Assembly (NCBI RefSeq): GCF_010672085.1
Contig: NZ_JAAHHT010000017.1
Span: 1 to 47,320 of the forward strand
Direction of reading: 5' to 3'
DNA from: Okeania sp. SIO3I5
GTDB taxonomy: Bacteria > Cyanobacteriota > Cyanobacteriia > Cyanobacteriales > Microcoleaceae
DNA: 47,320 nucleotides
Part shown: positions 18,743 through 34,326 of the stretch, piece by piece
Layout: each line of letters opens with the position of its first letter
How positions within the stretch are numbered: the first letter of the stretch is position 1
Notes under the pieces: model-generated
The model's database searches: none
What the model was told of the DNA's origin: nothing
Seen by the model: the letters and a program-made list of their open reading frames with translations, nothing else
Position numbers and translations under genes: made by a program

Positions 18743-19021
18743 TAGCAATCAGGAATAATACCACCATGCATTAATGCTATACTTACTCAAAACTTCAGTT
18801 ATTAACTAATAAGCAATGTTTTTAAGAATTTGTTGCCATGAAATGAAGATATAAGATATTTTTGAACCCTACTCTGTACGGACGCCCTTATGCAACGTCC
18901 CTACTGCTCAAGGAGATGTAGCAAGAATGCATGAGAAATGGTATTAGAAGAGTTTAATCAAAGGTTTATAATTTATGTAAATCTATATTGTATAGTATTT
19001 TTAGTCATTATCAAAATCACT

Positions 19022-20455
19022 ATGAAACCAGAAAACTCCACTCCCAAAATTGACTATGATGTAGCGATCGTCGGTGCTGGTCCTGTAGGATTAGCAACTG
19101 CCCTCGGTTTACGACAGCGTGGAATCAAAAATATTATCGTCCTTGACCAAACTCGCGCCTTTCGCCAGGTAGGTCAGACTATTGGTCTTTTACCAAATGG
19201 TATGAAAGCACTTAGATATATTCATACCCAAGCTCACAAAAATCTTACAGAAGAATTTAAAAAATCCAAGAACCCACTAAAAGAAGATCCGTCAAAGCAA
19301 AAATGGACGATGAGAAATGTAAATGGGGAAAAAATACCTTCACCTTCAAAGGGACTCGGTGAAATATTTGGCAAGTATGGGGAGCATCTAGGATTGATAC
19401 CTTGGTATGAGTTACAGACTCAACTGAGAAGACTATTACCAGAAAATCTTGTCAAACCTAATCATCGTTTTATTAGCGTAGTTGCCGAACCAGAATTTCA
19501 ATGTGTTCGGGCAGATTTTGTTTCTAATCTGGGAGCAAAACCTAACCCCTATTCCTACTGGGAAGATCAACAAAAAAAGGCTCGAACTAACACAGAAAGT
19601 TCATCCCAATTTCCTGAATCAGAAATCACATCTATTCGTGCTAAACTATTGATTGGAGCAGATGGGATTAATTCTACAGTACGTCAGTCAATTTACAAAG
19701 ATACTCCATACTCTGCATACAGCAAACCTAAATATTCAGGTTTTTCAGGCGTTCAGACTGAAGGAATTTATCAGGTTCCAGAAGCACTGTCACAGCAAAT
19801 CAAGGAGCAGTTTTTTGATGATGCTAAAACAGCAGCAATTTATAATTACCCAACCTCGGAAACTTCCACAATTAACCAAGAACCTACTATGAAAATGCTG
19901 ATCTGGTCTTATGAACCTGGTGAGTTTGAATATCTAATTGATGCAATTATGCCATTTGAATCATTGGCAGGGAAAGTAGGAAAAGATTTGATTGATAGTT
20001 TAGTCTTGGAATTGAAAAAAGCTAACTTTCCAGAAATAATTCAGCGGTTGGTAGCTTTATCACCTCCAGAAAATCTAGCAAACCGCCCCTTTTATATTCA
20101 CCCCGTCAATATTCCTGCTCCAGATCGGGCAAAGTGGAGCATAGGGCGAGTTGTATTAGTAGGAGATGCAGCTCATGGAATGCCACCAGTTGCTGGTCAA
20201 GGTGCTAATCAAGGGATGGAAGATGCTGCAGCGATCGCTACTTTGGTGGCTAAGATTAATCAGCAAAATCAATGGGATGATACAGCAGGTATAGAAACAG
20301 CTTTCGATAAATATGAATCTTTGCGTCGCCCTATTGTAGAGATTGCTCAAGAGGGAAGTATGAGAATACGATCCTTTTATTCAGAATGGCATGAGCAGTT
20401 TGCTGAAGAAATCTATGGTCGTAATATTGCAGAAATTATGCAAACCTTGTTATAA
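19022..20455 (+). CDS. FAD-dependent monooxygenase, paralogue 1
   Basis: A 477-residue flavoprotein of the PHBH/UbiH-like group (FAD_binding_3). The FAD-binding dinucleotide motif VAIVGAGPVGLATALGL is near residue 15, the DG motif is LLIGADGINSTVRQ, and the GD motif is VVLVGDAAHGMPPVAGQGAN. It should use FAD, NAD(P)H and oxygen to hydroxylate or epoxidise a small, probably hydrophobic or aromatic, substrate. An ATG at 18938 would add 28 residues. However, the two paralogues downstream begin at the point matching ATG 19022, and DNA similarity with the third gene includes this start, so 19022 is chosen. This is the first gene of a three-gene tandem array with gaps of 45 and 50 bp, almost surely one operon. 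Confidence 0.88.
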   Translation: MKPENSTPKIDYDVAIVGAGPVGLATALGLRQRGIKNIIVLDQTRAFRQVGQTIGLLPNGMKALRYIHTQAHKNLTEEFKKSKNPLKEDPSKQKWTMRNVNGEKIPSPSKGLGEIFGKYGEHLGLIPWYELQTQLRRLLPENLVKPNHRFISVVAEPEFQCVRADFVSNLGAKPNPYSYWEDQQKKARTNTESSSQFPESEITSIRAKLLIGADGINSTVRQSIYKDTPYSAYSKPKYSGFSGVQTEGIYQVPEALSQQIKEQFFDDAKTAAIYNYPTSETSTINQEPTMKMLIWSYEPGEFEYLIDAIMPFESLAGKVGKDLIDSLVLELKKANFPEIIQRLVALSPPENLANRPFYIHPVNIPAPDRAKWSIGRVVLVGDAAHGMPPVAGQGANQGMEDAAAIATLVAKINQQNQWDDTAGIETAFDKYESLRRPIVEIAQEGSMRIRSFYSEWHEQFAEEIYGRNIAEIMQTLL

Positions 20456-20500
20456 TCAAGAATCTTACAACTGTTGTACAATTATCAATATTAGTTTATA

Positions 20501-21955
20501 ATGCCAGAAAACTCCAATCCAAAAATTGACTATGATGTAGCAATAGTAGGTGCAGGTCCAGTGGGATTAGCAACTGCCCTCGGTTTATATCAACGTGGGA
20601 TAGAAAATATTATTGTCCTCGACCAAACTCGGGCCTTTCGTAAAGTAGGTCAGGGTCTCGATCTTTTACCCAATGGTTTGAAAGCAATTAAATACACCCA
20701 TACCCAAGCTTATGAAAATATTAAAGAAACTGGTAATAAGCTCAATAACCCAACACAACCAAACCAGGAAACAAAGGCACAAAAAAATCAGTCTGCTCCA
20801 CGATGGGTGACCAGAAATGTCAACGGAGAGGAAATCCGTTCATTTTCTCTAGAATACGATGAATGGTTTCATAAGTATGGAGAAGGTAGAGTATCAATAT
20901 CTTGGTACGATTTACAAACTCAATTGAGGACACTTTTACCAGAAGAAGTTGTTAAAGCTAATCATCGTTGTATAAATGTAGTTGCCGAACCAGAATTGAA
21001 ATGCGTCCGCGCGGATTTTATTTCTAATCAGGAAGTAGAAACTAATCCCTATGCTCACTGGGATGATCAACAAGAAAAGAATAAAAGCAGTAGTGTAAAT
21101 TCCTCCCAATTCCCTGAATCAGAAATCACATCTATTCGGACTAAACTATTAATTGCAGCAGATGGAATTAATTCTACTGTACGTCAAGTAATCTACAAAG
21201 AGACTCCATATAGTGAATATAGCAAACCAGAATATTCTGGTGTTGTAGCTATTGGCAGTGGAGGAGTATATGAAATACCAGAAGCACTCTCACAAAAAAT
21301 CCAGGATTTGTTTATTCAAGGTTCGCGAATAGTAACTATTCTCAATCAGCAAATAGCGGAAAATTCTACAGAAAACCAAACCCCCAGAATAATCTTATTT
21401 TCCCGTCAGTCCGGTCAATGTGGATATTTAATCCACACACCTTTGACTTTAGAATTATTGGCAGGAAAGTCAGGAAAAGAGTTAATCGATCTGGCTATCT
21501 TGGAGTTAAAAAAAGCTAACTTTCCAGAGATGATTCAGCAATTGGTAGCTTTATCTTCTCCAGAAAAGATCATACAACGTCCGTATTATATTCACCCCGT
21601 CAATATTCCTGCTCCCAACCAGCCAAAATGGAATATGGGGCGGGTTGTATTAGCGGGAGATGCAGCTCATGGAATGCCACCATTTATGGGTCAAGGCGCT
21701 AATCAAGGTCTGGAAGATGCTGCTGTGATAACAACTTTAGTAACTGAGATCGACAAACAAAATAAGTGGGACGATCTGGTGGCGATAGAAACAGCTTTCA
21801 GTAAATATGAGGGTTTGCGTCGCCCACTTATGGAGCGAATTCAATACGCAACTTTGACAAGACTACCTCTGTCTTCAGAGCAGTATGGACAGGAGTATGC
21901 TCAACAAGTCTACGCTCGCAATATAGATCAAATTATGCAAACATTATTGTCATAA
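20501..21955 (+). CDS. FAD-dependent monooxygenase, paralogue 2
   Basis: A 484-residue protein, closely related along its length to its neighbours. It has the same FAD motifs (VAIVGAGPVGLATALGLYQR, LLIAADGINSTVRQVIY, VVLAGDAAHGMPPFMGQGAN) and the same C-terminal ending (IDQIMQTLL). It differs most around residues 75-100 (after IKYTHTQAYENIKE) and 260-300, probably the substrate side. In paralogues 2 and 3 GQGANQGLEDAA and GYDEWF/EYDEWF-type sequence are shared where paralogue 1 differs, so these two are the closer pair. It starts 45 bp after paralogue 1. The preceding CTGTTGTACAAT sequence is repeated before paralogue 3, showing the duplication unit included upstream DNA. Confidence 0.88.
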   Translation: MPENSNPKIDYDVAIVGAGPVGLATALGLYQRGIENIIVLDQTRAFRKVGQGLDLLPNGLKAIKYTHTQAYENIKETGNKLNNPTQPNQETKAQKNQSAPRWVTRNVNGEEIRSFSLEYDEWFHKYGEGRVSISWYDLQTQLRTLLPEEVVKANHRCINVVAEPELKCVRADFISNQEVETNPYAHWDDQQEKNKSSSVNSSQFPESEITSIRTKLLIAADGINSTVRQVIYKETPYSEYSKPEYSGVVAIGSGGVYEIPEALSQKIQDLFIQGSRIVTILNQQIAENSTENQTPRIILFSRQSGQCGYLIHTPLTLELLAGKSGKELIDLAILELKKANFPEMIQQLVALSSPEKIIQRPYYIHPVNIPAPNQPKWNMGRVVLAGDAAHGMPPFMGQGANQGLEDAAVITTLVTEIDKQNKWDDLVAIETAFSKYEGLRRPLMERIQYATLTRLPLSSEQYGQEYAQQVYARNIDQIMQTLLS

Positions 21956-22005
21956 GAACTCTGATAACTGTTGTACAATATTTTAGTAATTATCCGTATC
22001 AATTT

Positions 22006-23445
22006 ATGAAACCAGAAAACTCCAATCCAAGAATTGACTATGATGTAGCGATCGTCGGTGCGGGTCCAGTGGGATTAGCAACTGCTCTAGGTCTACGTCA
22101 ACGTGGAATCGAAAATATTATCGTCCTTGACCAAACTCGTGCCTTTCGTAAAGTTGGTCAGGGTCTCGGTCTTTTACCAAATGGCTTGAAAGCACTTAAA
22201 TATATCGCTCCCCAAGCTTATAATAATATCAAAGCTACTATTGGCCAACCAAACAACTCATTACAAACAGGTCAGAAAAATGAAGTAGAAAAAAAACAAC
22301 CTTCCCCAGAATGGCATCATGTAAATGTGAAGGGGCAACAAATTCGTTCTTATTCCATGGGATACGATGAATGGTTTCAGCAGTATGGGGAAGGAAGAAT
22401 CTCAATATCTTGGTACGATTTACAAACTCAACTGAGAACACTATTACCAGTTGAGCGCGTCAAAGCTAATCATCGTTGTATTAATGTAGTTACCGAGCCA
22501 GAATTTCAATGTGTTCGAGCAGATTTCGTTTCTAATCAGGAGGTAGGAACTAATCCCTATGCTCACTGGGACGAGCAACAAGAAAAGAATCAAAGCAACA
22601 CTGTAAATTCCTCCCAATTTCCTGAATCAGAAATTACATCTATCCGTGCCAAACTATTAATTGCAGCAGATGGAATCAACTCTAGTGTCCGTCAAATAAT
22701 CTATAAAAATACTGCATATAGTAGATACAGTCAGCCAGAATATTGTGGTGTTGGCGCGATCGGCAGTAGTGGAACATATCAGATCCCAGAAGCACTTGCA
22801 CAAGAAATTAAGGAGAGATTTTTTCATGGTTCTCCTAGAGTCGTAACTATAACAAATCACGAAAGTGACGTTCCCAGAATCATATTATTTTCTCCTCAAC
22901 CTTCTCAGTTTGGATATCTCCTCCATGCAGCTTTTCCATTGGAGTCATTGCTAGAAAAATCGGGAGAAGAGTTAATTAATATTGCCGTAGAAGAGTTAAA
23001 AAAAGCCGACTTTCCAGAGATGGTTCAGCAGTTGGTAGCTTTATCTTCCCCAGATAAGATGATACAACGTCCGTATTATACTCATCATGCTACCGTTTCT
23101 GCTCCAGAACAGCCAAAATGGAATATGGAACGGGTTGTATTGGCAGGAGATGCTGCCCACGGGATGCCACCATTTATTGGTCAAGGAGCTAATCAAGGAC
23201 TAGAAGATGCAGCAGCGATCGCTACTTTGGTAGCTGAGATTAGCAATCAAAATCAGTGGGATGATGTGAGAGCTATAGAAGCAGCTTTTAGCAAATATGA
23301 GGCTTTGCGTCGTCCATTTGTCACTTATATTCAAGAAGAAACTTTAATTGGTAAACCTTTTTTTTCATCAGATGAGAAGTTACGGAAATATAATCAAAGA
23401 GTTTTATCTCGCAATATTGAGGAAATTATGCAAACATTTCAATAG
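22006..23445 (+). CDS. FAD-dependent monooxygenase, paralogue 3
   Basis: A 479-residue third copy. FAD motifs are intact: VAIVGAGPVGLATALGLRQR, LLIAADGINSSVRQIIY and VVLAGDAAHGMPPFIGQGAN. It begins MKPENSNPRIDYD, nearly the same as paralogue 1. The segment after SGTYQIPEALAQEIKERFF is shorter than in paralogue 2. All three keep the catalytic framework, so they may act on successive positions of one substrate or on different substrates. No synthase, reductase or transporter for a pathway is adjacent. The 3-prime side runs into repeat-rich DNA, with no clear terminator. Confidence 0.88.
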   Translation: MKPENSNPRIDYDVAIVGAGPVGLATALGLRQRGIENIIVLDQTRAFRKVGQGLGLLPNGLKALKYIAPQAYNNIKATIGQPNNSLQTGQKNEVEKKQPSPEWHHVNVKGQQIRSYSMGYDEWFQQYGEGRISISWYDLQTQLRTLLPVERVKANHRCINVVTEPEFQCVRADFVSNQEVGTNPYAHWDEQQEKNQSNTVNSSQFPESEITSIRAKLLIAADGINSSVRQIIYKNTAYSRYSQPEYCGVGAIGSSGTYQIPEALAQEIKERFFHGSPRVVTITNHESDVPRIILFSPQPSQFGYLLHAAFPLESLLEKSGEELINIAVEELKKADFPEMVQQLVALSSPDKMIQRPYYTHHATVSAPEQPKWNMERVVLAGDAAHGMPPFIGQGANQGLEDAAAIATLVAEISNQNQWDDVRAIEAAFSKYEALRRPFVTYIQEETLIGKPFFSSDEKLRKYNQRVLSRNIEEIMQTFQ

Positions 23446-24579: not shown

Positions 24580-27081
24580 GTGAATTTAGGTACATTATCC
24601 GTTCAAAAAGAACAGTGGCAAGAAGCGATCAGCTATTATCAAAAAGCCATAGAAATTAAACCAGACTTAGCAGCAGCTTACCGAAACTTAGCCAGAGCTT
24701 ATGAAAAAATAGGCAACCATACTGAAGCGGCAGAATGTCGTAAACAAGCTTACTCTTTAGAACCTGGTAAAACAAAAATCAATCAACCGAAGAAAATCAC
24801 AAAATCAAATTCAGAATCATCAAATGAAGCAACCAAAATAGCAATTCCCAATGATGCCACAACTACCTACAAAACCCTGGGCAAAATGTTGCAATCTCAA
24901 GGGCAAATAGAGGCAGCTTGGCAGTCATATAAAAAAGGTCTATCTGTACAACCAAATGACCCAGAAATTTATCTGAATATTGGCAGTTTATATGCTGAAC
25001 AGGGACAATGGACAGAAGCAGTTCAATGCTATCAAAAATCCCTTGCTCTGAAGCAAAATTATGCCGATGCTTACCGCAAGTTAGCTACAGCTTGGACGCA
25101 AATCGGCAAGCAAACAGAAGCTTATAATTGTTGGTATCGAGCCTATACTTTAGAACCAGAAAAAGCTACAGCAGAAGAACATTTAATATTAGGAAATACT
25201 CTGCTCAGACAAAACGTAATTGATAAAGCAATATCCTGTTATTGTCGGGCGATCGAATTAAATCCTAATTTATCAGGAGCTTATGAAAATTTAGGGGAAG
25301 CATTAAAGCTACAGGGAACCAAGAAACCTACCACACCAGTATTTCCTAATCATTGGCAAAATCCAACAAATTCTCTCAACTTACTAACAGCAGAAAATCA
25401 TCAAAATAGTCAAGGAATAATTCAAAAGGTTAGGGCTGAAAATACAATTCATATTATTCAGAAACTCCAAAATTTTGAAAGAGTTGTTGGTGACTTAGTA
25501 AATACAGTTACATCAACATTTAATTTAAAAAATGACTTATCGGATAATTATCTAGAATCATCTTTATCTCTGTTAGAAAATAGTCAGCCTCAAGCAAGTG
25601 CAAACTCTACAGGAATTATCAAACCTGTACATTCCAACAAACCTCTAATCATTGAACCAGATTTAAGTAATATTTATTGGGATTTAGAGGGAGAAAAAAC
25701 AGTTATTAATACTCCAACACAAACTAACAATCATCAGATTATTCACTCTGGTTTAAAATCAGATGAAATTTCTCAAATTAATCAAACAATACCTATAAAT
25801 TCCACACCTGCTTTACCACCTAATGGTACGGTAAATATTCCAGAGATTTATATTCAGGAAGCTCAAAAATATTATGAACAGGGATTGTATGAACAAGCAA
25901 TTTCCCAATGTCAACAAGCTATTTCTATCAAAATAGATGCAGTACCAGCTTACATAATTCTCGGAAATTCTCAGGAAAAAATTGGGCAAATAAAAGAAGC
26001 AGAGAGAAACTATCAAACAGCTCTTGAAATTGAGCCAAATAATGCCTCTATTTATAAAAAATTAGGCAATTTGTATGCTGGATATAAATCTTGGCAGTCA
26101 GCAGTTGCTTGTTATCAAAAAGCAGCAAAAATTGAACCAGATGTGGCTGATAATTATCGCAATTTAGCTAAACTTTGGACGGAATTGGGTAAACCAAAAT
26201 CAGCAATAGATTATTGGTATCAAGCTTACTCTCTAGAACCGAAAAAAGTAACAGCTAACGATCATTTTAATTTAGGAAATAAATTGTATAGGCAAGGGGA
26301 AATTACTAAAGCAGTATCCTGTTATCAAAACTCTATAAAATTAAATCCTAATTTTCCTACGGTTTACTATAATCTTAGTGTAGCTTTAAAACATCTTGGC
26401 AGATTAGATGAAGCAATTAGTTATCATCAAAAAGCCAAGGAAATATTGGCAGATAAAAATCAAGATCAGGATAATTTAAAGGTTGAGATGAATTCTCGTA
26501 TATTAACCAAATTAGAAATTCAACATCAGAATGGTAATCAACCAAGTGCAGCAGAAATAAACTTGGAAAATCATCAACCACGGCAGTTAGATAGGGCAGT
26601 ACAAAATGAGAAAAAGTCTACTCAAACAGAACAAATTAAACAGATATTAAAAAAAGCCAACACTTATTATTTAGAAGGATTGTTTAAAGAAGCGATCGCC
26701 TCCTGTGAAAGAGTAATTAAAATTCAACCAGCTCCAGAAGCTTATCAAATAATGGGGAAAGCTTTTCAAGAGCAAAATCAAATAGACAATGCCATGAATT
26801 ATTATCATCAAGCACTGAAAATAAATCCTAACTTAGCTGGTGCTAATTATGAGATAGGAAAAATATTAGCAGTGCAGAAAAACTGGCATGAAGCTATTCA
26901 TTATTATCGGCAAGCTCTATCTGTATTAAAGTTAGATTTAGATAGTCAAACATTAATAGGATTAAAACCCGATATTTGGGAAGTTCATCAGCAATTAGGA
27001 GATGCACTACAGGAAATTGGGGAAATAGAAGAAGCTGTGAAAATTTATCGTCAAGCTCTTATAGCAGGGAATAGGGAATAG
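24580..27081 (+). CDS. TPR-repeat protein, both ends apparently lost
   Basis: An 833-residue protein made of tetratricopeptide repeats in blocks (about 1-60, 85-250, 420-615 and 680-830) separated by polar linkers. Typical units are AISYYQKAIEIKPDLAAAYR and LGNLYAGYKSWQSAVACYQK. TPR superhelices bind other proteins. In cyanobacteria such genes often carry glycosyl- or sulfotransferase domains, none of which is present here. The frame is open upstream from 24538 and already encodes a TPR unit (AIEYQPNFAEAYVNLG) before the only usable start, GTG 24580, so the true N-terminus looks lost. The last residues (AGNRE) and the stop are GGGAATA-repeat DNA, so the C-terminus is altered too. It may be a fragment of a larger gene related to the one at 30037. 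Confidence 0.75.
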   Translation: MNLGTLSVQKEQWQEAISYYQKAIEIKPDLAAAYRNLARAYEKIGNHTEAAECRKQAYSLEPGKTKINQPKKITKSNSESSNEATKIAIPNDATTTYKTLGKMLQSQGQIEAAWQSYKKGLSVQPNDPEIYLNIGSLYAEQGQWTEAVQCYQKSLALKQNYADAYRKLATAWTQIGKQTEAYNCWYRAYTLEPEKATAEEHLILGNTLLRQNVIDKAISCYCRAIELNPNLSGAYENLGEALKLQGTKKPTTPVFPNHWQNPTNSLNLLTAENHQNSQGIIQKVRAENTIHIIQKLQNFERVVGDLVNTVTSTFNLKNDLSDNYLESSLSLLENSQPQASANSTGIIKPVHSNKPLIIEPDLSNIYWDLEGEKTVINTPTQTNNHQIIHSGLKSDEISQINQTIPINSTPALPPNGTVNIPEIYIQEAQKYYEQGLYEQAISQCQQAISIKIDAVPAYIILGNSQEKIGQIKEAERNYQTALEIEPNNASIYKKLGNLYAGYKSWQSAVACYQKAAKIEPDVADNYRNLAKLWTELGKPKSAIDYWYQAYSLEPKKVTANDHFNLGNKLYRQGEITKAVSCYQNSIKLNPNFPTVYYNLSVALKHLGRLDEAISYHQKAKEILADKNQDQDNLKVEMNSRILTKLEIQHQNGNQPSAAEINLENHQPRQLDRAVQNEKKSTQTEQIKQILKKANTYYLEGLFKEAIASCERVIKIQPAPEAYQIMGKAFQEQNQIDNAMNYYHQALKINPNLAGANYEIGKILAVQKNWHEAIHYYRQALSVLKLDLDSQTLIGLKPDIWEVHQQLGDALQEIGEIEEAVKIYRQALIAGNRE

Positions 27082-27202: not shown

Positions 27203-27231
27203 GTAGTAGTAGACTGACACAACTTAAATGG

Positions 27232-29720
27232 TCACGGCTGGGTGCTTCAGAAAATGTATCGACTCTGACGTATAGAGCAACAGAAGAAAAACTTTCAGAT
27301 TCATCTCCTCACTGTGGGTGCTTCATAAAATGTATCGACTCTGGCGTATAGAGCAACAGAAGAAAAATTTGACGATTCATCTCCTCACGACACGGGGGCT
27401 TAATAAAATGTTTTGACTCTGGCGTATAGAGCAACAGAAGAAAAATTTGACGATTCATCGCCTCACGGCGGGCGGGTGCTTCAGAAAATGTACCGACTCT
27501 GGCGTATAGAGCAATAGAAGAAAAATTTGACGATTCATCTCCTCACTGTGGGTGCTTCAGAAAATGTATCGACTCTGGCGTATAGAGCAGCAGAAGAAAA
27601 ATTTTCAGATTCATCGCCTCACGGCGGGTGCTTCAGAAAATGTATCGGCTCTGACGTATAGAGCAATAGAAGAAAAATTTGACGATTCATCTCCTCACTG
27701 TGGGTGCTTAAGAAAATGTATCGACTCTGGCGTATAGAGCAGCAGAAGAAAAATTTTCAGATTCATCCCCTCACGGTGCGGGTGCTTAAGAAAATGTATC
27801 GACTCTGGCGTATAGAGCAGCAGAAGAAAAATTTTCAGATTCATCCCCTCACGGCGGGTGCTTCACAAAATGTACTGACTATTGCTCTATACGCAATAGA
27901 AGAAAAATTTGACGATTCATCTCCTCACGGCGCGGGGTGCTTCAAAAAATGTATCGGCTCTGACGTATAGAGCAGCAGAAGAAAAATTTTCAGATTCATC
28001 CCCTCACGGCGGGTGCTTCACAAAATGTACTGACTATTGCTCTATACGCAATAGAAGAAAAATTTGACGATTCATCTCCTCACGGCGCGGGGTGCTTCAA
28101 AAAATGTATCGGCTCTGACGTATAGAGCAGCAGGAGAAAAATTTTCAGATTCATCGCCTCACGGCGCGGGGTGCTTCACAAAATGTATCGGCTCTGACGT
28201 ATAGAGCAGCAGGAGAAAAATTTTCAGATTCATCGCCTCACGGCGGGGTGCTTCACAAAATGTTTTGACTCTGACGTATAGAGCAACAGAAGAAAAATTT
28301 TCAGATTCATCGCCTCACGGTGGGTGCTTCACAAAATGTATCGACTCTGGCGTATAGAGCAGCAGAAGAAAAATTTTCAGATTCATCGCCTCACGGCGGG
28401 GTGCTTCACAAAATGTATCGGCTCTGACGTATAGAGCAACAGAAGAAAAATTTGACGATTCATCGCCTCACGACACGGGTGCTTCATAAAATGTATCGAC
28501 TCTGGCGTATAGAGCAGCAGAAGAAAAATTTTCAGATTCATCCCCTCACGGCGCGGGTGCTTCAGAAAATGTTTTGACTCTGACGTATAGAGCAACAGAA
28601 GAAAAATTTTCAGATTCATCCCCTCACGGCGCGGGTGCTTCAGAAAATGTATCGACTCTGACGTATAGATTAATAGAAGAAAAATTTGACGATTCATCTC
28701 CTCACGGCGCGGGTGCTTCAGAAAATGTTTTGACTCTGACGTATAGAGCAGCAGGAGAAAAATTTTCAGATTCATCGCCTCACGGCGGGGTGCTTCACAA
28801 AATGTATCGACTCTGACGTATAGAGCAACAGAAGAAAAATTTTCAGATTCATCGCCTCACAGCGCGGGTGCTTCACAAAATGTATCGACTCTGGCGTATA
28901 GATTAATAGAAGAAAAATTTTCAGATTCATCGCCTCACAGCGCGGGTGCTTCACAAAATGTATCGACTCTGGCGTATAGAGCAGCAGGAGAGAAATTTGA
29001 CGATTCATCGCCTCACGGCTGGGTGCTTCACAAAATGTATTGACTCTGACGTATAGAGCAGCAGTCGAAAAATTTTCAGATTCATCGCCTCACGGTGCGG
29101 GTGCTTCACAAAATGTATCGACTCTGGCGTATAGAGTAACAGTCGAAAAATTTTCAGATTCATCGCCTCACGTCGGGTGCTTCACAAAATGTATCGACTC
29201 TGGCGTATAGAGCAACAGTCGAAAAATTTTCAGATTCATCGCCTCACGGCGCGGGTGCTTCACAAAATGTTTTGACTCTGACGTATAGAGCAACAGTCGA
29301 AAAATTTTCAGATTCATCGCCTCACGGCGCGGGTGCTTCACAAAATGTATCGGCTCTGACGTATAGAGCAACAGAAGAAAAATTTTCAGATTCATCGCCT
29401 CACGGTGCGGGTGCTTCACAAAATGTATCGACTCTGACGTATAGAGCAACAGAAGAAAAATTTTCAGATTCATCGCCTCACGGTGCGGGTGCTTCACAAA
29501 ATGTATCGACTCTGACGTATAGAGCAGCAGGAGAAAAATTTTCAGATTCATCGCCTCACGGCGCGGGTGCTTCACAAAATGTATCGACTCTGACGTATAG
29601 AGCAGCAGGAGAAAAATTTTCAGATTCATCGCCTCACGGCGCGGGTGCTTCACAAAATGTAATGACTCTGACGTATAGAGCAACAGGAGAGAAATTTGAC
29701 GATTCATCGCCTCACCGCGC
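27232..29720. repeat. Array of 32 tandem units of 76-79 bp
   Basis: Thirty-two units start with GGTGCTT or a close variant, at 27241, 27317, 27395, 27475, 27551, 27627, 27703, 27781, 27857, 27936, 28012, 28091, 28170, 28247, 28323, 28400, 28478, 28556, 28634, 28712, 28789, 28867, 28945, 29022, 29100, 29176, 29254, 29332, 29410, 29488, 29566 and 29644. Each runs through AAAATGTATCGACTC, TGACGTATAGAGCA, GAAGAAAAATTTTCAG and TTCATCGCCTCACGGC. Length varies almost only in the G/C joint (CACGGCGCGGG). Lengths not divisible by three in the left half argue against a protein. Open frames in both directions in the right half follow from a run of 78-bp units. There are no unique spacers, so it is not CRISPR. 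Confidence 0.95.
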
Positions 29721-30036
29721 GGCTCTACGTTGTGTATTTAGTCCTCTTTTTCCTGATAGAAGTAAAAAGTATTGAAAAGTCTAGAAGAACTGCTAATTCA
29801 TACCAATTTGATGAATGTTTGCTACCCTTTCTTGAGCAAGGGAGTGGGGCAAAGATAAACACAATAATAACTAATACTAAATAGCTAATAGTTATCAAAA
29901 ATGTTATTTAGTCATGTTAATTACTTAAGAATTTAAGTTTCATCCAAGCATAGCATTCTTTTTTTTAAATTGGTATTAAAGCGTTACATTCTAACAATTT
30001 GATGACTAAAAAATATCATAAATAAATAAATTTCCT
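29721..30036. other. Spacer before the TPR/glycosyltransferase gene
   Basis: A/T-rich DNA with no repeat of the families listed here and no supported reading frame. It presumably holds the promoter of the gene at 30037. I could not pick out convincing -35 and -10 boxes. Confidence 0.5.
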
Positions 30037-33000
30037 ATGCTAACAGACACAAAAACCGATACAACCACTCAAAATATGCAAGAGTCTAAGTATGCTAAAA
30101 CCCACTATCGCTTAGGGCAAATTTCCGCAAAACAAGGAAAACTAGAAGAAGCTATTACTTGTTACAATACAGCTATTGAAATCAATCCATACTTTACTGA
30201 AGCTTACTATTCTTTAGCTAATATTTTAGTCAATCAAAACCAGCTAGAAGCAGCAGCAAGTCTTTGTCAAAAACTAATTAAAATTCAACCCAATCTATGG
30301 CAAGCTCATCATAATTTAGGGGAGATATTAATTAAACAAGAAAAATTTTCGGAGGCAATTTTAGCTTATCGTCATGCCATAGAATTAAACCAAAACTCTT
30401 ATCTGTCTTATTTTAAATTAGCAGAAATATTAGTAAAAGTAAGACAATTTTCTCAAGCAATAAATGCTTACCGTAAAGCAATTGCACTAGATCCAAATTT
30501 TGCCGATGCTTATCAATATTTGGGTGATGTTCTAGTAGAAACTGACCAGAAAGAAGAAGCAATTAAGGTCTATAGAAAAGCTGTTGAAATTAAACCTCAA
30601 TTATGGGATGTACATCATAAATTAGGTAATTTATTGCAAGAAAAAGAAGAGTTAGAAGCTGCCGTTGCTGCTTATAATAAATCCATAGAATTCAAGCCAG
30701 ATTTTTCTTGGTCTTATAATAATTTAGGGGATGTTTTTGTTAGTTTAGAACAATGGGATAAAGCAGCTAAAGTTTATGATCGAGCTACTAAATTGAATCC
30801 TGATTTTGCTTGGGGTTATTATAAATTAGGCGATGTTTTAGTTAATTTAGAACAATGGAAAGAAGCGATCGCTGCTTATCGTCAAGCAGTAGCTATCAAT
30901 TCTCAAGCACCATGGTATCTCTACAAGTTGGGAGCGCTTTTGCATCAACAGGGTGAGTTTGAGGAAGCAGTTGGTTATTTGCGCGAAGCAGTAAAACTCA
31001 AAACAGATGCGTCTGAGTTTTATCTTGGTTTGGGAGCAGTCTTAGTTAAGTTGAAGCAATGGTTAGAAGCAGAGAAGTATCTCCAAGAAGCGATCGCTAC
31101 AACTGACTCCTTCGATACTTCCCATTCAGCAGCAGCGTATTATTATTTGGGAGTCGCCAAGTCTGAGCAACAGCAGTGGTTGCAAGCAGTAGAATTTTAT
31201 CGTCGCAGTCTAGAAATTAACCCCGATGGAGGCGACTGTTGTTTAGCGTTAGCAGAAGCTTTTGGTAAATTAGAAAAATGGTCAGAAGCAGTAGAATTTT
31301 ATCGTCGGGCGGTGCTTTTATCTGGTAAGTCAAACCAAGTTTTGTTCCGTTTAGGAGAGGCGTTGGGGCAGTTACAAAACTGGGCAAAAAATGTTAACTT
31401 ATCTCCCGAATTAGATGTCAAAAAAGAGGAGATTGCAGATTCCCAAGCGGAAATCTCTAGTTTCCAGAAAGTAGTTACTCAAGAACCAGAAATAATCTTA
31501 TTTACTCCTTATTACAAAGCCAAACATTCTAAAAGGCAGGAGGAATTAATTTATTGTCTGAAGAAAAATACACAGTGTGATGAAATTGCAAAAATTATCT
31601 TAGTAATAGATGACGATCATATTCCAGAAGTCGAAAGTTCTAAGATTGAAATTGTCAAAGTATCTGCCAGACCTACCTATCTTGACTGGGTAGAATTAAC
31701 TGAGCAAAAGTGTCAGAATCAAATTTCAATTCTTGCCAATACTGACATCTATTTTGATGAATCTATTGCCCGCATCCGAGAAATATTTGCTGCCGATCCA
31801 CAAGGGTTTGTAGCATTAAGTCGTTATGAAAAAGAAGCGGAAAATCAAACCTTACATAAAACTCCGCATTGGTCACAAGATGTTTGGGCTGTTTCTGGAA
31901 ATTTTAAATTTACAACATCCTTTAAAAACTCTCTGAGAGTTTCTTTAGGAGTCCCTCGTTGCGATAATAAAATTGCTTACTTATTTGCTATTCATGGCGC
32001 TCCAGTTTATAACCCTTGTCATCATATTAAAACAGTTCACGTTCAAGAAAGCCAGTTAAGATATTACGATAAATATGGTGATACAAGCATTTTAGGGGGT
32101 ACTGCATGGGTTTACCCAAGTATCATTATTAATGAACCATCTAAAATACAAATAGATTTATGGACATTAAATTCCTCTAATTTAGCTGGATTACAAGTCA
32201 ATAAAACATGGGATTCTTTAAATAAAAAAAGTCAGAAAGAAGAAAGCAAAGAATCAGATACTAACGACAAAGAAAAATCTAGTGAAAAGAAAATAATCCA
32301 CAACGTTTTAGGATTTGACTCTGATTGGCAGTACCCGGCAATTACAGAAAAATATGCCTATCAAATGGCAAATAAATTTTTAACTAAAGATAACTTTGAG
32401 CAAAATGTTATTTACTTTGGATTCCCTTGGGCAACACTGCTCGACAAACGGCTTCATAGTCAAGATAAAACCGAAGCTAATGCTTTAATAGAAAAGTTGA
32501 ACAGCTTTCAAGATGAACTGAAAAAATACAAAAAAGTTATCACAGTTTGTCAACATATCCGAATGTTAGAATTTGAAGGTATTTTTGACGCAGTAGGTAT
32601 TACTGATATTTTTTGGTCTCATACAAAAAAAGACCAAAATGTTCTCCCTTCTTATCCACACATTTCATTGCATTCTTTCCCACTTTATCCCGTACAAGCA
32701 ATTGATATAGAAGCAAAAAAAACAGATAAAAAATATTTGTATTCATTTGTAGGAACTCGCCCGAGCAAATCTTATTTAACAGATTCAAGAACTAAAATTA
32801 TTGATTCCCTATCAGATGATAACCGAGGGTTAATAATTGCCAGAAATCAATGGCATTACAACAAAATTGTCTACGATCGCCAAATTCTCAAAAAGGTGAA
32901 AAATGATGATAATCTTGTAGACAACTCCGCGTCAGAAGAATTCAAACAAGTGATGCAGGAAAGCGTATTCGCTCTGTGTCCATCGGGATCTGGTCCAAAC

Positions 33001-34326
33001 TCGATTCGTCTCTGGGAAGCTATTGGTTTGGGAGCAATACCAGTTGTGATAGCTGACACCTATTTACCTCCAGGCGATCGCTCACTCTGGGATGAAGCAA
33101 CAGTAACTTGTTCCGAAAAATTAGAAGATATCAAAGCGCTACCCGATCGCTTGGCAGAAATACAAAAAGACGATGCACTCCTCCACAAAAAACGTGAAGC
33201 ACTCAAACAACTGTGGACGAGATATGGAGCAGACTGCTTCGTATACGACATCGAGAAATTATTTTTCCAATATGCGTCAGGGAAACTGGGAGCAACCAAA
33301 CCCAAAACCAAAGCATCCAAAGGTTTGAAGAAAGCAGTTAGTTTGTTAGCACCTAAAAAATTAACCAAAGAAGACTTCAAACCATCCTATACTTGGCCAA
33401 ACCCAACATTCCCATTCCGCTTATATTATGATGGCGCCAAGTGTAGAATTTTCATCATCGAAAACATCCAGCACAACTGGAAATGGATGGCAGAATGTCA
33501 CGAACGTTTTCGGAAAACAGATTTCTTCTTCGTAATGACAGGGTGGTATCAAAGTCCGACTTTTGCTGATGAAGCAGAGGCAATTTTTTCCGTACTCAAA
33601 TTAGATAAGAAACAATTTTTCTTCATGTATAATTCCCCCCAGGAAATGGAAAACTTTGCCAAGAAAGGTTTTCAAGGGGATGTTATTAACCAAAACGCTT
33701 GGTTAGATGAGAAAGCGATCGCGCAGCATCTTGACAAAGAGAAAATATACGATGGCATTTATGTAGACTTTAACAAAAAATCTAAACGTCCTCAACTGGC
33801 AGATCGAGTTTATCCGTTAGCACTGGTGACAAAATCTAATCATGGCAAAGCTTTTGCCGATACACCCCCATACAAATTTCTCAATGAGCAACAACTGTCG
33901 CCTACAGAAATGTGGGAAAAAATTAATCAATCTCATTGTGGTTTGGTGTTATCAGCAGAAGAGGGAGCGTGTCAAACTTCCAGTGAATACCTATTGTGTG
34001 GCATACCTGTCGTATCCACATCTTCCCTGGGAGGACGCGACGTTTGGTATAACGAACATAACTCCATTATTTGCGAGGCAACACCGGAAGCAGTTGCATC
34101 TGCAGTCGAAAAATTTGTCAAAAATCCTCCTGATGCACAGCGCATTCGTCAGCAACATATAGAGCAGGCAAAAGAGTACAGAGAAAAGTTTATTCAGGTG
34201 GTAGCTGATGTTTTTAAGCAGTTTGGAGTCATTGATGTCGAGGCATCAAGCTATTTCCAAAAGAACTTTTATAACAAAATGAGGAAAAACGAAAACATTA
34301 AATTTGTTAAATCTCTTTTTGTTTGA
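30037..34326 (+). CDS. TPR / multi-domain glycosyltransferase fusion protein
   Basis: This 1429-residue protein has four parts. Residues 1 to about 465 are a long TPR superhelix (AITCYNTAIEINPYFTEAYY and similar units). About 483-720 is a GT-A-like domain (ILFTPYYKAKHSKRQEELIY, VIDDDHIPE, ISILANTDIYFDESIARIRE). About 765-1085 is an exostosin-like domain, with VFALCPSGSGPNSIRLWEAI and GAIPVVIAD as its signature. About 1108-1429 is a GT-B-like C-terminal domain (SHCGLVLSAEEGACQTSSEY, LLCGIPVVSTSSLGGRDVWY). TPR fused to glycosyltransferases is known from protein O-glycosylation and surface glycan assembly. A soluble, multi-step enzyme acting on a glycoprotein or exported glycan is the likely role. 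The following genes are methyltransferases, suggesting methylated sugars. No membrane segment or signal peptide is present. Confidence 0.85.
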   Translation: MLTDTKTDTTTQNMQESKYAKTHYRLGQISAKQGKLEEAITCYNTAIEINPYFTEAYYSLANILVNQNQLEAAASLCQKLIKIQPNLWQAHHNLGEILIKQEKFSEAILAYRHAIELNQNSYLSYFKLAEILVKVRQFSQAINAYRKAIALDPNFADAYQYLGDVLVETDQKEEAIKVYRKAVEIKPQLWDVHHKLGNLLQEKEELEAAVAAYNKSIEFKPDFSWSYNNLGDVFVSLEQWDKAAKVYDRATKLNPDFAWGYYKLGDVLVNLEQWKEAIAAYRQAVAINSQAPWYLYKLGALLHQQGEFEEAVGYLREAVKLKTDASEFYLGLGAVLVKLKQWLEAEKYLQEAIATTDSFDTSHSAAAYYYLGVAKSEQQQWLQAVEFYRRSLEINPDGGDCCLALAEAFGKLEKWSEAVEFYRRAVLLSGKSNQVLFRLGEALGQLQNWAKNVNLSPELDVKKEEIADSQAEISSFQKVVTQEPEIILFTPYYKAKHSKRQEELIYCLKKNTQCDEIAKIILVIDDDHIPEVESSKIEIVKVSARPTYLDWVELTEQKCQNQISILANTDIYFDESIARIREIFAADPQGFVALSRYEKEAENQTLHKTPHWSQDVWAVSGNFKFTTSFKNSLRVSLGVPRCDNKIAYLFAIHGAPVYNPCHHIKTVHVQESQLRYYDKYGDTSILGGTAWVYPSIIINEPSKIQIDLWTLNSSNLAGLQVNKTWDSLNKKSQKEESKESDTNDKEKSSEKKIIHNVLGFDSDWQYPAITEKYAYQMANKFLTKDNFEQNVIYFGFPWATLLDKRLHSQDKTEANALIEKLNSFQDELKKYKKVITVCQHIRMLEFEGIFDAVGITDIFWSHTKKDQNVLPSYPHISLHSFPLYPVQAIDIEAKKTDKKYLYSFVGTRPSKSYLTDSRTKIIDSLSDDNRGLIIARNQWHYNKIVYDRQILKKVKNDDNLVDNSASEEFKQVMQESVFALCPSGSGPNSIRLWEAIGLGAIPVVIADTYLPPGDRSLWDEATVTCSEKLEDIKALPDRLAEIQKDDALLHKKREALKQLWTRYGADCFVYDIEKLFFQYASGKLGATKPKTKASKGLKKAVSLLAPKKLTKEDFKPSYTWPNPTFPFRLYYDGAKCRIFIIENIQHNWKWMAECHERFRKTDFFFVMTGWYQSPTFADEAEAIFSVLKLDKKQFFFMYNSPQEMENFAKKGFQGDVINQNAWLDEKAIAQHLDKEKIYDGIYVDFNKKSKRPQLADRVYPLALVTKSNHGKAFADTPPYKFLNEQQLSPTEMWEKINQSHCGLVLSAEEGACQTSSEYLLCGIPVVSTSSLGGRDVWYNEHNSIICEATPEAVASAVEKFVKNPPDAQRIRQQHIEQAKEYREKFIQVVADVFKQFGVIDVEASSYFQKNFYNKMRKNENIKFVKSLFV

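Follow-up and report, generated by a model that had tools for sequence, protein, structure and literature searches.

STRR of filamentous cyanobacteria are heptamers, and the unit of LTRR is 37 bp. In flies, elements of the Foldback/Tetris type, which hold internal tandem repeats together with terminal inverted repeats, found satellite arrays. LTRR is a tandem repeat from Nostoc/Anabaena (Masepohl 1996, cited in PMC2408588). BrickBuilt of Porphyromonas gingivalis is a 23-nt minisatellite inside a MITE, and its description reports no leader-to-tail versions without the repeats (PMC4596501). REP/REPIN–RAYT systems consist of short palindromic extragenic repeats in many copies (PMC3733652, PMC3116915). 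REP are dispersed palindromes of 20–40 bp.

The repeat array described here lies in Okeania sp. SIO3I5, in a stretch of 47,320 nt that was analysed as a whole (the window), and its unit forms further arrays in the same genome. The nearest published counterpart that we found for the unit family, judged comparable, is BrickBuilt. According to PMC4596501, BrickBuilt shares with this family spacer-free imperfect tandem repeats in non-identical arrays at many intergenic loci and a restricted host range. A leader and tail that end in short inverted repeats, present at some loci, may be a further point in common. The BrickBuilt unit is 23 nt, whereas the unit here is mostly 75–78 nt, and the likeness between the two is one of organisation. 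Unlike BrickBuilt as portrayed in that text, the genome studied here has many places with the terminal inverted repeat (TIR) motif but no array, and no TIR motif was found near 14 of its 27 studied arrays. Two further features of the present arrays set them apart from the BrickBuilt description, namely inverted hairpin cores and the clustering of units by species.

STRR and LTRR have periods of 7 or 37 bp, as against spacings of mostly 75–77 nt here. They are likewise non-coding tandem repeats scattered in genomes of filamentous cyanobacteria (for LTRR, PMC2408588). A comparison by eye did not show the LTRR stretch printed there within the consensus of the unit, and the LTRR hosts in that source are Nostoc/Anabaena, whereas the hosts here are Okeania, Hydrocoleum and a Microcoleaceae MAG. 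A GTAG at the 5′ edge of several arrays is a REP-like hint, but the unit here is tandem and ~76 bp long. Identity with REP/RAYT was rejected because none of the 10 Y1_Tnp matches in the genome lies on a contig carrying any of the 27 arrays. A CRISPR array does not fit either, since there are no unique spacers and only a joint of 5–9 nt varies in length. Foldback and Tetris are eukaryotic, and their likeness to the arrays here is one of process only. No title or abstract describing this repeat was found in a literature search that subscription journals largely lie outside.

The unit family is best read as a fast-changing bacterial counterpart of satellite DNA, often placed against the ends of small transposon-like elements. 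Our data indicate that it is probably a lineage-restricted, non-coding minisatellite family, which would have been seeded with MITE-like elements before its units were multiplied and made uniform at each site. Satellite-like biology, in the form of dispersed arrays, concerted evolution and seeding by transposable elements, thereby becomes testable in a bacterium. The summed spans of the 27 arrays, ~31 kb with two of them (L019 and L024) inflated because the box finder joined neighbouring repeats of other periods, are a countable component of the non-coding DNA of large cyanobacterial genomes.

Architecture and coding status of the window array

TRF placed the array at 27232–29722 on the plus strand, with a period of 78, 32.1 copies, 88% matches and a score of 3575. 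When the window was shuffled 20 times in two-base blocks, the top score for a period above 20 was 71. Offset-78 self-identity of the array was 0.61, and it never exceeded 0.28 when the array was shuffled base by base 200 times. The first-pass annotation had described a spacer-free array of 32 units of 78 bp between two TPR genes, and this description held. The upstream gene (24580–27081, plus strand) encodes TPR repeats, and the downstream gene (30037–34326, plus strand) combines TPR repeats with Exostosin_GT47 and glycosyltransferase domains. The unit body, which runs from GTGCTTCA to CCTCAC, has a length of exactly 71 nt in all 32 cases, and only a G/C joint of 5–9 nt separates one body from the next. 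The first body (27242–27312, plus strand) opens with the box GTGCTTCAGAAAATG. All length change among window units is located in the joint, as had been noted, but the unit-to-unit spacing is 76–80 nt and not 76–79 nt, the value of 80 occurring once in 31 spacings. Two near-palindromes had been assigned to every unit. They are common but not universal: CTCTG(A/G)CGTATAGAG is exact in 28 of the 32 units (17 with A and 11 with G), and GAAAAATTTTC is exact in 21. The array also has higher-order structure. A 170-bp exact repeat with overlapping copies starting at 27809 and 27964 (27809–28133, plus strand) forms a duplicated two-unit block, which supports the minisatellite reading.

Three other repeats or gene groups were seen in the window. 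A 123-bp tandem repeat with 95% matches and 6.2 copies touches the window start (1–770). Three FAD_binding_3 paralogues stand in a row on the plus strand (18938–23445), with neighbouring copies in some relatives. To the right of the array, a dispersed repeat of ~180 bp (29800–29982) has many matches at ~69–86% identity in all seven genus genomes searched.

The hairpin core of the unit occurs in two orientations. The family core is TTGCTCTATACGCAA, and among 337 units 274 have the usual orientation, 56 are inverted and 7 are undecided. Inverted cores are found in 29 of the 31 window units scored, 12 of 16 units of L012, 8 of 13 units of L010, six units of L026 and one of L106. The two window units with the family-typical core are at 27858–27936 and 28013–28091 (both plus strand), the second lying 155 bp beyond the first. 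Inverted cores are the trace expected from template switching across the hairpin arms, a process that would flip the core. The sequence letters of one L012 unit show a flip of a larger segment, bounded by short arms. Replication slippage or unequal recombination, which the hairpin and the G/C joint may also favour, would multiply and homogenise units in place.

At first pass, length changes in the left half of the array that ignore codon phase had been taken to argue against a protein role, and the family-wide data uphold this. Only 105 of 335 unit spacings (60–90 nt) are divisible by 3, and conservation has no codon periodicity (0.82, 0.82 and 0.84 by position modulo 3). The synonymous fraction was measured in 15 of the 32 window units, those with a length of 78 nt. 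It is 0.295 in the open minus frame and 0.261 in the mostly open plus frame, compared with 0.285, 0.329 and 0.464 in frames full of stops, so the open frames do not stand above the stop-filled ones. A stop-free frame exists only on the minus strand, where its value is below those of the two stop-filled minus frames (0.329 and 0.464), and the mostly open plus frame has a stop in 3 of the 15 units. The right end of the window array is open for 167 aa on the plus strand (29272–29775, over the homogeneous part of the array) and for 179 aa on the minus strand, and 12 of the 27 array spans hold internal open frames of 91–247 aa. These open stretches would suit a repeat protein gene or its remnant, but the 167-aa frame and the frames inside the 12 spans were judged spurious, and in view of the spacings and the lack of codon-phased conservation this origin is extremely improbable. 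Neither codon-phased length change nor protein-like substitution was found, and a coding array is refuted for the family as a whole by spacings, codon phase and synonymous fraction together. An intact long frame in relatives, which would have spoken for a protein, was not seen, as the two relatives compared have no array at the junction.

Repeated small RNAs made from the array had been another proposal, and a structured RNA was considered along with it. The family consensus contains a short hairpin, and a typed consensus folds on one strand at z = −1.58. RNAalifold found no consensus structure on either strand among 42 units, and among 21 array consensuses there was only a 4-bp hairpin, inside the range of column shuffles, with mean single-sequence z of 0.02 and −0.56 on the two strands. 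No match for the unit was found in Rfam, and no conserved fold with covariation was detected. Structured RNA was rejected as a family feature on RNAalifold, shuffles and Rfam. Judged from the sequence, the small-RNA proposal gains no support, and an RNA role of either kind is very unlikely.

The unit family within the genome and among relatives

A search for the unit elsewhere in the genome and in relatives had been suggested at first pass, and it was positive on both counts. In the whole-genome search the window unit gave at least 137 matches, and a more typical consensus gave at least 240. We studied 26 further arrays in the same genome, 27 with the window array; these are the loci retrieved and delimited and not a full census, and matches elsewhere exist (for example at C35). 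The number of boxes per array ranges from 2 (L109) to 32. Spacings are mostly 75–77 nt (252 of the 335 between 60 and 90 nt), and some arrays are near 71–72 or 83 nt. Predicted ORFs of at least 110 aa nearest to the arrays sit outside the array spans, except for an overlap of 39 nt at L011. The 27 arrays are therefore imperfect, spacer-free tandem repeats at many loci that are intergenic with respect to predicted ORFs.

Some subfamilies and neighbours of the unit were also observed. L022 (1–1569) holds a subfamily whose units reach 83 bp through an insertion within their A/T part. Tandem repeats of 287 bp (L019, 4205–5197) and 103 bp (L024, 3460–3838) adjoin arrays and share a box-like GCTTCA/GAAGC...AATG with the 76-bp unit, as might be expected of a module that these repeats have in common.

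The 76-position model found the unit in 12 of 61 family genomes, including the source genome, from 3 of 11 genera, and did not find it in the other 49 (E ≤ 1e-4). Among 243 genomes drawn from the order it was found in two, the source genome and one congener, at E ≤ 1e-6, a stricter filter than in the family search, at which weak matches are lost. An exact-pattern scan of named genomes returned 20 stretches, in Okeania records, Hydrocoleum sp. CS-953 and one Microcoleaceae MAG. A 1020-base query had no match in phage and plasmid records, and an origin of the array from either was set aside. Viral contigs were searched with the translated 167-aa frame, a weak test for non-coding DNA, and of two pattern matches none was confirmed.

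Conservation along the unit is uneven. When the consensuses of the 27 arrays are compared, no more than one deviant occurs in 29 of 76 columns, compared with 5.1 expected at a uniform rate, and the dispersion is high (chi-square 355, 75 d.f.). The most conserved stretches include the box GTGCTTCAGAAAATG. This uneven pattern is not what plain neutral drift would produce, and it counts against the minisatellite reading. It hints that a host protein or the transposition machinery recognises the unit, but it is not proof, because core inversions and shared ancestry inflate the figure. The near-invariant columns and the box would be expected if the array were maintained as binding sites for a protein of the nucleoid, of segregation or of regulation, and a protein-binding platform had been among the first proposals. 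Such a role is unlikely, as the array is missing at the window junction in two congeners, the unit was not found in most of the family genomes, box number per array varies widely, and no gene family is common to most flanks in the 32 of 52 flanking ORFs scanned. Eight of 30 flanking ORFs had no Pfam match at 1e-6. Domains that recur, Epimerase/NAD-binding at L012, L025 and L107 and DAO at L010 and L016, are limited to a few loci, and a shared gene context for the arrays was rejected. The best reading does without any host function for the arrays.

MITE-like elements at the array edges

A segment of ~100 bp precedes many arrays, and its ends are inverted repeats, GACTGACACA... and ...TGTGTCAGTC. 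In the window, a MITE-like terminal inverted repeat abuts the left end of the array (27206–27231, plus strand); its exact pattern match is at 27212–27228, and the array begins 3 bp past it. With at most one mismatch, the TIR motif GACTGACACANCTWAAA has 91 matches in the genome, compared with one for the same motif read backwards. It occurs within 200 bp of 13 of the 27 arrays, the window array included, and 18 of the 91 matches are near arrays, compared with 0.36 expected. The motif is present on both sides of L108, and also of L107 if a weaker match is counted. The ~100-bp element itself has 13 matches covering at least 71 positions. Nine of these are beside arrays, which supports the minisatellite reading, and four have no adjoining unit within the inspected range of up to 1.5 kb per side. 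These four copies, together with the 14 of 27 arrays for which the motif search, at its stringency, gave nothing within 200 bp, weigh against seeding by MITE-like elements. The association between arrays and elements is thus strong but not obligatory. Among the ideas of the first-pass annotation, an expanded mobile-repeat core gained the best support, from the 13 arrays close to a MITE-like terminal inverted repeat.

Two side observations concern sequences near such ends. A TnpB-like fragment (Cas12f1-like_TNB) is located at L009 (3961–4440), 80 bp from the array and between TIR motifs ~1.9 kb apart. L014 and L017 have a common 43-bp stretch 3′ of their arrays (95%; ATTAGCTTTTTTCG...), which resembles the interior of the MITE-like element.

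Of the 27 arrays, 15 begin 32–38 unit positions before the first box, and the element is directly there in eight of them and unrecognised in seven. The 3′ ends are scattered over the unit. In the reading preferred here, a seed made up of a single unit or a small number of them would have been carried to a new site, or would have arisen there, together with a MITE-like element. A less probable but still credible alternative is that the arrays spread by another route and that the element inserts secondarily at their edges, nested at a preferred site near the hairpin. TIR motifs occur at both 5′ and 3′ ends of arrays and in both orientations, and many places with the motif have no unit within the inspected 1.5 kb, as secondary insertion would allow. 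Random insertion would strike long arrays internally, but all 91 motif matches are at or outside the edges of the 27 array spans, and none is internal. The near-identical unit position at which the element joins eight arrays, and at which seven more start where no clear element is seen, also argues against secondary insertion.

A comparison of the L108 locus bears on the same question. Element and array are both present in the source genome and in the congener G003, where they are on two contigs. In three genomes of genus g7 the TIR pair encloses other DNA and the unit is missing, which indicates that element and array are separable and which agrees with secondary insertion. Neither a TIR match nor the unit was found at L108 in G001, G002, G005, G013 and G023. 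A single TIR-like match, again with the unit missing, was found in G004, and the alignment of G018 covers just one side. A clean empty site for element plus array, or a target-site duplication, was not found at L108, where the relatives have diverged or hold other DNA.

It is also conceivable, though doubtful, that the ~76-bp unit is a very small mobile element in its own right, having the 5′ end GGAAAATTT and the hairpin as its 3′ end, and that its preference for its own hairpin end as a target would produce head-to-tail arrays. This would explain the shared 5′ start of 15 arrays, the excess of near-invariant columns and the single unit direction per array.

Array turnover between species

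Units are homogenised within arrays. Mean unit identity is 0.883 within arrays and 0.721 between arrays, and 325 of 333 units have their nearest neighbour in their own array (units of 65–90 nt, other spacings being dropped). This is consistent with local amplification in the preferred reading, that of a minisatellite family seeded with MITE-like elements. We compared eight array pairs, of which three share both flanks between species and the rest share one flank or a short stretch. A comparison of array length between strains had been proposed at first pass; it was done here between species, and all three flank-sharing pairs differ in copy number. Box counts are 25 and 17 for L013/L096, 22 and 4 for L110/L049, where L049 is a locus of Okeania hirsuta, and 9 and 4 for L101/L103. 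In these pairs, respectively, 33 of 40, 26 of 26 and 10 of 13 units are closest to another unit of their own array, and therefore array turnover is fast but incomplete. Since array length differs between species, the array may be useful as a strain marker.

At the window locus, two congeners, one with a genome that is 81% complete, keep both flanking genes at 83–87% DNA identity. No unit match was found at their junctions, where 1.26 and 0.98 kb lie between the gene matches. The window array is therefore a gain in the source lineage or a loss in theirs, and loss could also account for its absence. A third relative (G003) is uninformative here, as its contig ends 173 bp upstream of the downstream-gene match. 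Just to the right of the array, positions 29749–29786 of the window are still alignable in both congeners.
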